From the NCBI GenBank assembly GCA_020852815.1, contig JADZAN010000046.1:186001-250000 (forward strand): a stretch of DNA of 64,000 nucleotides, written 5' to 3'. The position numbers were made by a program, and so were the translations under genes. The notes under the pieces were generated by a model. It made no database searches. It saw only the letters and a list, made by a program, of their open reading frames with translations, and was not told where the DNA came from. Shown here piece after piece: positions 33,040 to 55,958 of this stretch (positions are counted from its first letter, which is position 1; every line of letters starts with the position of its first letter). The stretch is from Gemmatimonadaceae bacterium (GTDB lineage: Bacteria > Gemmatimonadota > Gemmatimonadetes > Gemmatimonadales > Gemmatimonadaceae).

Positions 33040-33618
33040 TTAGCGGCTCCCGGCAGGCGGGATGCTGGCGAGGAAGTCCTCGACGAGCTTGCGGTTCCCC
33101 GCGTCGTCGAGGTTCCGGGCAATCAGCTTGCTGGCGCCGGCCAGCGCCAGGTCGACTGCCTCGCGGCGCAGGTCGCCGATGGCGCGCACCTTCTCGTTCT
33201 CGATGTCGCGCTTGGCGCGCTCCAGCAACTCCTGCTGCTGCGCACGCGTCTCCTCGAGCATCGAGACCTTGAGCTTCTCCGCGGTGGCGCGGCCGTCGGC
33301 AATGAGCTTCTGCGCGTCGGCGCGCGCCGCGTCGAGTTGCGCCTGCTGCTCGCCCAGGAGCTTGGCCGCCGCGTCGCGATCCTGCTGCGCCTTGGCAATG
33401 GCGGCTTCCAGCGACGCCTCGCGCGCCTCGACCGCCGCGATCAGCGGCTTGAAGGCAAACCTGGAAAGGACGACGAGGAGGACGATGAAGATGAGCAGGG
33501 TCCAGAACATCAACCCGCCGTTGGGCGAGAGGAGGTCAACCTTGCCGCCTTCTTCAGCGGCGAACGCCGTGGCCGGCGTGGTCAGGACGATGAGGGCGGA
33601 GAGGAGCGAAGGGCGCAT
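33040..33618 (-). CDS. atpF: ATP synthase F0 b subunit
   Basis: 192 residues. A hydrophobic N-terminus resembling a signal peptide (LSALIVLTTPATAFAAEE) precedes the real membrane helix (LMFWTLLIFIVLLVVLSRF, about 36-54) and a long Ala/Glu/Gln-rich coiled coil that forms the peripheral stalk. KPLI after the helix is typical. The extra leader is unusual for E. coli-type b subunits. I chose the ATG at 33618; the open frame upstream has no similarity. It lies 126 bases downstream of atpE. Confidence 0.94.
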   Translation of the reverse strand: MRPSLLSALIVLTTPATAFAAEEGGKVDLLSPNGGLMFWTLLIFIVLLVVLSRFAFKPLIAAVEAREASLEAAIAKAQQDRDAAAKLLGEQQAQLDAARADAQKLIADGRATAEKLKVSMLEETRAQQQELLERAKRDIENEKVRAIGDLRREAVDLALAGASKLIARNLDDAGNRKLVEDFLASIPPAGSR

Positions 33619-33744
33619 GACGACGTATCGAGGAACGGTGCCGTGGCACCGGGAGAGCGCGGGACTTCGGCGAAGACGCAACGACGGTCGAACGGGAGGG
33701 AGCAACGGGAGGAAGGCGCCCCGGGGCGCCCCCTCTCGCGGTAC

Positions 33745-34035
<291 letters not shown>

Positions 34036-34178
34036 CTAACGTTGAACATCAGCGCTCGCCGAGTACGTCGTGTCCCTCGCTGCCCGTCACTGGACCCCGG
34101 GGCCCAACGGGCTTCACCAACCACTCGGCTGGCTACGTGCTGGCGCGGTGAGCGACGTCGCGTCAGTCGAACAGGTGC

Positions 34179-34291
34179 AGAAGACGAGAAGACGAGAAGA
34201 CGAGAGGACGTGATGGCGACCCTGAGGCGCCGTGACTCGAAGCGGAAGCGACCCATTCTCGTCTTCCCGTCTTCTCGTCCTCTCGTCTTCT
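34179..34291. repeat. Long inverted repeat of 8-bp units, copy 1 (atpB-atpE gap)
   Basis: Left arm 34179-34210 consists of units AGAAGACG (three) and AGAGGACG. The right arm 34260-34291 is its complement with three mismatches over 32 bp. The loop is 49 bases. On the minus strand the hairpin begins six bases after the atpB stop. A related element with other loop sequence lies at 55854-55958, so this is a repeat family. Confidence 0.88.
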
Positions 34292-34296
34292 CCCTC

Positions 34297-35268
34297 CTAG
34301 TGGTGCGCCTCCCGGATCTGGCCAATGAAGACCGACGCCAGGAGTGTGAAGATGAATGCCTGCAGGAAGGCCACGAACAGCTCCAGCATCATGATGGCCA
34401 CCGCCATCAGGAACGGCGCCGCCGAGACCGGGCCCGCGAAGGTGAAGATCAGCCCGATGAGCGCAAGGACGACGATGTGTCCCGCGGTCATGTTGGCGAA
34501 GAGACGGATGGCGAGTGCGAACGGCTTGGTCAGCTTCCCGATCATTTCGACCGGGGACATGATCAGGAACATCGGGATCCGCATGTACAGCGGCAGGTCC
34601 GTGTTCCAGTAGAAGATCGTGGAGAGGTAGTGAATCCCCTGGGCGCGCATCCCCGCCACCTCCACGACGATGAACGTCATGATGGCGAGTGTCGCCGTCA
34701 CCGCGATGTTGCCGGTCGCTGTCGATCCGTAGGGGACGAGGCCGAGCAGGTTGGCGGTGAGGATGAAGAAGAAGATCGTGAGGAGGTACGGGACAAAGGC
34801 GTTGCCGTGATGTCCCACGTTCGGAAGGATGACTTCATTCCGCATGTAGAGCACCATCGCCTCCAGGCCGGCGGCGAATCCCTTGGGACGCCCGGCCTCG
34901 TGGTGGTGCTTCGCGTGCGCGCGCGCCGTCCCGACGAGGATCACCGTCACGAGCAGCGCGGCGATGAGCATCATCATCACGTGCTTCGTGGGCGACAGGT
35001 TGATCGAATACCCCGCGATGTGCACTGGCTCCCACAGCGGCTCGCACCCGTGCTCGCCGACGTGGCGGCCGAGGCAGATCTCCTTGTAGAACGGCGGGAA
35101 GATCGACGGAAGCTCCATGTGGTAGGAGTCCGTGATGTGCGGCGTGATGATATCGACCTTCTCGACCGCGGCGGCGGCGGCCGGCGCATGCTCCTGCGCG
35201 GCCAGCGGGGCAACGACCGGTGCGGCGAACAACGCAGAGGCCAGCAGGAGCGAACGGAGCGCGCTCAT
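34297..35268 (-). CDS. atpB: ATP synthase F0 a subunit with N-terminal extension
   Basis: 323 residues, longer than E. coli's 271. The first about 25 residues look like a signal peptide (cleavage near PLAAQE), followed by about 65 residues of presumably periplasmic sequence with two Cys (CLGRHVGEHGC, near 66 and 76) before the first helix. The core is canonical: the essential Arg near 254 in LAIRLFANMTAGH and the C-terminal helix ending FIGQIREAHH. It conducts protons between c-ring and membrane sides. Its ATG overlaps the atpI stop as ATGA. Confidence 0.96.
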   Translation of the reverse strand: MSALRSLLLASALFAAPVVAPLAAQEHAPAAAAAVEKVDIITPHITDSYHMELPSIFPPFYKEICLGRHVGEHGCEPLWEPVHIAGYSINLSPTKHVMMMLIAALLVTVILVGTARAHAKHHHEAGRPKGFAAGLEAMVLYMRNEVILPNVGHHGNAFVPYLLTIFFFILTANLLGLVPYGSTATGNIAVTATLAIMTFIVVEVAGMRAQGIHYLSTIFYWNTDLPLYMRIPMFLIMSPVEMIGKLTKPFALAIRLFANMTAGHIVVLALIGLIFTFAGPVSAAPFLMAVAIMMLELFVAFLQAFIFTLLASVFIGQIREAHH

Positions 35269-52866: not shown

Positions 52867-52963
52867 GACGTTCTCTGGACGGGAGACGGGGGAACGCTTG
52901 CCCCAGCGAAGGCTGGGGGGGGACGGAAGTGCGGCGGCCGCGGGCCGCGCGCTCGCGTCCTCG

Positions 52964-55825: not shown

Positions 55826-55853
55826 ACCGCGACAATCTAGAGGACGAGAGGAC

Positions 55854-55958
55854 GAGAAGACGAGAAGACGAGAGGACGAGAAGGGCGTACCCCGCGCCGA
55901 GTCTGGCGCTCGAGGGTCCAAACCTCGTCTTCTCGTCCTCTCGTCTTCTCGTCTTCTC
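55854..55958. repeat. Long inverted repeat of 8-bp units, copy 2 (topA-trmFO gap)
   Basis: A perfect 30-bp stem (55854-55883 with 55929-55958) around a 45-base loop. The arms are tandem AGAAGACG and AGAGGACG units; two more units extend the left arm to 55839. On the minus strand it begins three bases after the topA stop. Same unit and arrangement as copy 1 at 34179; the loops are unrelated. Confidence 0.92.

Follow-up and report, generated by a model that had tools for sequence, protein, structure and literature searches.

Intergenic heptamer-like repeats are common among prokaryotes and unexplained (PMC6344855, PMC4692102). The passages on heptamers in the SPADE survey rank intergenic heptamer repeats as the most abundant kind in prokaryotes and offer no clear clue to their function (PMC6344855). 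The closest described systems are the GGGAATC repeats of Xanthomonas and the GGGGA(C/T)T repeats of Nostoc, which, in the sections of Rehm et al. (2015) that treat them, form 100–200 tandem arrays per genome, mostly intergenic, with the nearest ORF on the 5' side of the array whatever the direction of that ORF (PMC4692102). The same sections list 70 and 75 convergent inverted pairs in two Xanthomonas species, with most repeats lying between the same genes in both, and they leave the function unsolved while stressing quadruplexes (PMC4692102). The TAACTGA repeats of marine Beggiatoaceae, in the parts of the source devoted to them, likewise form heptamer arrays that lie in gaps and are oriented by the genes, often directly before a start codon without a ribosome-binding site (PMC4679880).

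Here we describe arrays of two repeat units in one genus of Gemmatimonadota, represented by G000, the window's own genome (5.38 Mb, 100% complete), and by G001 and G002, the other two genomes of the genus. The window is the whole stretch of DNA that was analysed, 64,000 nucleotides of a Gemmatimonadaceae contig. A literature search that took in no preprints and a minority of the subscription journals returned no paper on such repeats in Gemmatimonadota. We put at roughly 40% the probability that the element between the ATP synthase genes atpB and atpE consists of two facing one-sided gene-edge arrays that serve as a unit-tolerant directional boundary, with a Rho-type gate as the leading guess.

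The atpB–atpE Hairpin

The element lies among genes for F0F1 ATP synthase subunits a, c, b, and delta, between the upstream gene atpB (subunit a; 34297..35268, minus strand) and the downstream gene atpE (subunit c; 33745..34020, minus strand). Its left arm (34179..34210, plus strand) is an 8-bp array of three AGAAGACG units and one AGAGGACG; it is followed by a 45-bp spacer (34211..34255) with the degenerate motif ACCCT..GGCGCC..ACTCG, also present in some other copies, and by the right arm (34256..34292, minus strand), an 8-bp array 4 bases from the atpB frame end. Over 35 nt, positions 34179-34213 show 89% complementarity to positions 34257-34291, from which 43 nt separate them, and comparison of the arms over 32 nt gives three mismatches. 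These data confirm the 32-bp stem of inverted 8-bp units, close behind the atpB stop, that the preliminary description had reported; a reversed-pattern control with 0 genomic matches excludes chance, and five bases separate the stop codon (34297-34299, minus strand) from the stem end at 34291.

The minus-strand RNA of the element has a predicted fold of −75.1 kcal/mol (z −6.9; 0 of 200 shuffles equal), and the DNA fold has a z of −5.7. No T-run intrinsic terminator was found in 33600-34500, in agreement with the earlier view that this is not an ordinary terminator, nor was a sigma-70 promoter site found in that interval. A search of the hairpin against Rfam 15 returned only microRNA-precursor models, far under the gathering cut-off, and no family near it. 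The arm at 34179 is 158 bp distant from atpE, and the leader between the two (34021..34178, minus strand) is partly conserved in the three species; its conservation peaks beside the start codon, where it is nearly invariant.

A second full copy (55839-55958; fold z −9.1) lies between topA and trmFO. Its left arm (55839..55883, plus strand) begins 13 bp from the trmFO start, its 40-bp spacer (55884..55923) holds the motif ACCCT..GCGCC..ACTCG and an inner hairpin of its own, and its right arm (55924..55958, minus strand) is 3 bp from the topA frame. A short array of a second, 7-bp unit, GGGRGAC, occupies 52877..52893 (plus strand), 10 bp from a gene edge. The region 52877-52918 also shows a hairpin repeat around CCCCAGCGAAGGCTGGGG, which is often fused to the inner end of 8-mer and 7-mer arrays; one form of it, the 27-mer CCTGCCCCAGCGAARGCTGGGGACGAG, has 25+26 = 51 exact copies in G000 and 0 in the other 59 genomes searched. 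A loose motif, ACCCT..GGCGC..ACTCG, was noted in some spacers (34211-34255, 55884-55923, L136, G000 C2:210082, and L144); it occurs within 60 nt inside 5 of 140 arrays, against about 0.7 expected from background, and several more spacers look similar by eye.

Distribution of the Repeat Units

We searched 60 genomes, comprising the window's own and others of its genus, family, and order. The exact 16-mer AGAAGACGAGAAGACG matched G000 100+83 times, while its reversed control gave 0 matches. When A or G was allowed at position 4, the doubled 8-bp unit had 242+223 = 465 matches in G000, 243+216 in G001, and 154+154 in G002, and it was absent from all 57 genomes outside the genus. Many further copies of the 8-bp unit thus exist, so the possibility that the atp copy is the only one falls away; with 465 doubled-unit matches in the genome, the repeat is not an atp feature. 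In 644 kb of G000 we counted 33 arrays, which scales to about 275 per genome. A scan of genome contigs for the inverted 8-bp pair matched six contigs, all from one MAG (clean1220), and viral contigs gave 0 matches to the 8-bp arrays; a phage origin was rejected on this result.

The 7-bp unit GGGRGAC was found in 9 of the 60 genomes, the three of the genus among them; its counts in G007 and G014 are low and carry little weight, as the reversed control matches in those genomes too. Stretches of 80 kb from each of three genomes of other genera (G013, G017, and G030) contained no recurrent array unit. On contig C2 of G000, a region of 180 kb (about 300008-480000; L102-L110) is without any 8-mer array, where about nine are predicted from the genome average.

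The preliminary description had placed the element ahead of atpE as a possible means of expressing that gene differently. A role specific to atpE finds no support: arrays occur genome-wide beside genes of many kinds, and in G002 the array at atpB is of the 7-bp type, with the arm nearer atpE missing. At the same edge, G001 retains the 8-mer pair.

Placement and Polarity at Gene Edges

Gene edges were called with a simple codon-usage gene finder applied to all analysed stretches. The placement counts leave out arrays without a called neighbour (two 8-mers and two 7-mers in G000, three arrays in G001, and one in other genera) as well as one duplicate G001 contig. Among 97 8-mer arrays in G000, 87 were intergenic, 8 lay inside called genes, and 2 had no neighbour. 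Of the 87 intergenic arrays, 66 had the outer (A) end no more than 15 bp away from the nearest gene edge, and 8 had the inner end so placed. When arrays were positioned and oriented at random in the same gaps (2000 trials), 19.7 were flush on average and 32 at most. The 66 flush arrays comprised 42 at stop edges and 24 at start edges. Since outer ends are flush at stops and starts alike, the purine strand points outwards from the gene at both of its ends. Base composition was rejected as the cause of this polarity, as array-free edges are about 0.57 purine outwards at starts, a weak bias, and about 0.5 at stops.

The rule was also seen for 8-mers in G002 (18/20 flush) and for the 7-mer in G000 (14/16) and G002 (6/8). 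It was less pronounced for 8-mers in G001 (12/20) and weak for the 7-mer in other genera (4/15), where genes were called with the G000-trained model. Within called genes lay 11 of the 29 7-mer arrays of G000, and some of those genes are perhaps miscalled, as may also hold for the 8 of 97 8-mers. In one gap (L016 6052-6567; G000:C2:146052-146567), the called frame upstream of a paired array crosses the left array and stops within the gap; read through in this way, the array appears to extend the C-terminus of the protein.

Array ends are phased. At the outer end, 47 of 95 8-mer arrays began with the unit's first base and 18 with the preceding base, while the inner end came after AG in 41/95 and after AGRRG in 33/95. 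The commonest array length was 34 nt, that is, four units plus AG (16/108).

Paired Arrays and the Hairpin

Neighbouring arrays less than 300 bp apart were convergent in 43 of 50 cases, on the same strand in 7, and divergent in 0. The 43 convergent pairs comprised 31 of type 8/8, 10 of type 7/7, and 2 mixed, compared with 16.4 mixed pairs expected. Within stretches of W, C2, and C14, counting gaps of 60–600 bp, five gaps carried arrays at both edges, where 0.46 would be expected if the edges were independent. Among the gaps of G000, 2 of the 28 that bear arrays were divergent, versus 54 of the 259 others (p = 0.13); the trend in G002 was opposite, and divergent gaps are thus not consistently avoided. 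An inner hairpin beside stop-edge arrays was in mild excess (8-mer p = 0.08, 7-mer p = 0.02).

The preponderance of convergent pairs, the excess of gaps with arrays at both edges, and the very stable predicted folds of both strands of paired copies are what one would expect of an RNA hairpin that shields upstream mRNA from exonucleases or steers processing between neighbouring genes, as the preliminary description suggested. The arms themselves argue against it: the likeness in A/G pattern between the two arms of a pair was 0.513, compared with 0.584 for arms shuffled between pairs (p = 0.965), so arms of one pair match no better than arms of other pairs. Mismatches in the transcript showed no clear preference for G-U over A-C (21 vs 14 in 8-mers, 4 vs 5 in 7-mers), and compensatory pairing between arms was discarded on these two comparisons. 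Moreover, single arrays are placed by the same rule as pairs, and a search for a decayed second arm opposite them found none (p = 0.38, n = 25). Considering also that paired sites are less conserved than singles (see below), we regard a function of the RNA hairpin as quite unlikely. The hairpin arises because both edges of one gap carry arrays, and it looks like an unstable by-product of one-sided gene-edge arrays.

Comparison between Species

We sought 1478 gene edges of G000 in the analysed parts of G001 and G002, in which the syntenic stretches had been picked for carrying arrays. In G002, 17 mapped edges bear an 8-mer array in G000; at these we found the 8-mer at 11, the 7-mer at 4, and neither at 2, while none of 119 mapped edges without an 8-mer in G000 carried one. 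In G001, nine mapped edges with a G000 8-mer had the 8-mer at seven, the 7-mer at one, and neither at one. Four of 66 G001 edges without a G000 8-mer carried one; one of these has a 7-mer in G000, and on inspection of the other three, two turned out to be matters of threshold or distance, and one was a true difference. On the inner side of the array, the adjoining 60 nt were nearly unalignable between species (identity 0.62 vs 0.56 shuffled, n = 18), and copy number and A/G pattern of the arrays varied as well. Within the genus, edge and direction are kept between species, while the repeat unit, the number of its copies, and the interior of the gap vary.

Single and paired arrays differed in this respect. 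All 13 comparisons of single arrays showed the 8-mer retained, against 5 of 13 for paired arrays (p = 0.0016), with some sites counted twice, once per species, and the edges of one gap not being independent. For G002 alone, the values were 9/9 for singles and 2/8 for pairs (p = 0.002), and for G001 alone they were 4/4 and 3/5, a difference that is not significant. At L147, both edges of the gap carry 8-mers in G000 and 7-mers in G002. Given the retention of singles over pairs and the lack of co-variation between arms, what is conserved as a unit is the one-sided array at the gene edge. An interspersed, hairpin-capable element, as first described, was thus upheld, while the hairpin as the conserved unit was not, since singles obey the rule and are better kept than pairs.

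The turnover of pairs is well explained by the strongest rival of the directional boundary, in which the arrays would be old self-renewing repeats with no cellular function. Slippage would keep the units pure, broken palindromes would be mended from other copies, and repeated repair would erode spare DNA up to a protected boundary, either a gene or the atpE leader. Such a process is in keeping with paired sites swapping unit or disappearing where singles do not, with the concerted change at L147, with the unit concordance within pairs (31/10/2), and with copy numbers and A/G patterns that differ among species. It is harder to reconcile with the 15 of 17 edges that retain an array of either unit in G002 despite nearly unalignable interiors, with the 0 of 119 new 8-mer sites there, and with the complete retention of singles, and we consider it doubtful.

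Another rival is a mobile or templated element, either a REP-type repeat mobilised by a Y1 transposase or tandem DNA that a telomerase-like reverse transcriptase adds to breaks. End addition would account for the polarity, with 3' ends on both sides extended into the gap, and for the phased ends and the single unit type per gap. However, no RVT_1 protein was found in G000, which is 100% complete, or in G001, while G002 has one; a telomerase-like origin was rejected on this distribution. Among the three genomes, a Y1 transposase occurs in G000 only and not in G002, which has arrays. Neither 8-mers nor 7-mers nor the CCCCAGC hairpin occur within about 1.5 kb of the single Y1_Tnp of G000, and a RAYT origin was dismissed accordingly. 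With no new 8-mer site at the 119 G002 edges and none in viral contigs, we judge a mobile or templated origin highly improbable.

Proposed Function of the Arrays

Returning to the directional boundary, the comparisons suggest that what is kept at the gene edge is a boundary that would act on transcripts and be indifferent to the unit. A polymerase leaving the gene would produce purine-rich RNA, while one entering the gene from the gap would produce C/U-rich, G-poor RNA, (CGUCUUCU)n or (GUCUCCC)n; for the 8-bp unit, the entering-strand RNA has 3 C, 4 U, and 1 G per 8. As the leading guess, the incoming C/U-rich RNA may load Rho, which would restrict both antisense transcription and read-through that enter the gene. 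In gaps with an array at each edge, the arms could pair, and such palindromes would have a quicker turnover, probably because they are cleaved and then repaired with another copy as template.

Rho homologues are present in all three genomes of the genus, and G000 has two Rho-like genes, C2:146663-147727 (432 bits to TIGR00767) and C14:136361-137593 (642 bits). A paired array directly adjoins the stop edge of the former. At 34 nt, the commonest array is shorter than a typical rut site. Several points count against the Rho gate or the boundary in general. A Rho site directly before the start codon of the gene itself, as the 24 start-edge arrays among the 66 flush ones would imply, is awkward for a gate. 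To our knowledge, cyanobacteria, Nostoc included, are without Rho, which also counts against it. The lower flush fractions in G001 (12/20) and for the 7-mer in other genera (4/15) speak against the boundary, as do the arrays that lie inside called genes, the lack of a consistent avoidance of divergent gaps, and the 158-bp distance between the arm at 34179 and atpE.

A further reading, which we hold to be unlikely, is that gene edges bear an inherited polar mark of interchangeable sequence, whose position and direction outlast the surrounding DNA and which may be rewritten from 8-mer to 7-mer at the two edges of a gap simultaneously. If this were so, the Xanthomonas, Nostoc, and Gemmatimonadota repeats would be convergent forms of one quadruplex-independent boundary device, and palindromic pairs would be hot spots of rewriting.

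Comparison with Known Repeat Systems

REP/BIME elements, in the part of the source that covers them, resemble the arrays of this genus in being intergenic, hairpin-capable, and present in over 100 copies; they differ in that no transposase partner was found here and that the unit is a tandem octamer rather than a single palindrome (PMC2817692). The TAACTGA arrays of Beggiatoaceae share the location in gaps and the orientation relative to genes, and differ, in the passages that describe them, by having mostly one orientation upstream of starts and a single inverted repeat in the genome (PMC4679880). The SPADE survey, in its passages on heptamers, comes without an analysis of placement or polarity (PMC6344855).

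The closest likeness is to the Xanthomonas and Nostoc heptamers as set out in the sections cited above: in both cases a genome holds some 100 arrays or more, most of them intergenic and adjoining an ORF on the 5' side, with convergent pairs. The differences lie in the units. AGARGACG is 8 bp long and has no run of three G, while the 7-mer GGGRGAC does have one; neither unit equals GGGNATC or GGGGAYT, the phylum is different, and here two units coexist and swap at one edge. As the main 8-mer is without the G-tract, the defining feature of the heptamer repeats, we class it as a variant of that group and not as a member, and quadruplexes are unlikely as the reason for the placement rule. The natural replacements, in which one edge carries a different unit, retain edge and direction and neither sequence nor hairpin. 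The placement rule is known from the Xanthomonas and Nostoc heptamers; a unit without G-tracts and the swapping of units at fixed edges are new, and in this Gemmatimonadota lineage the placement rule is uncoupled from quadruplex formation.
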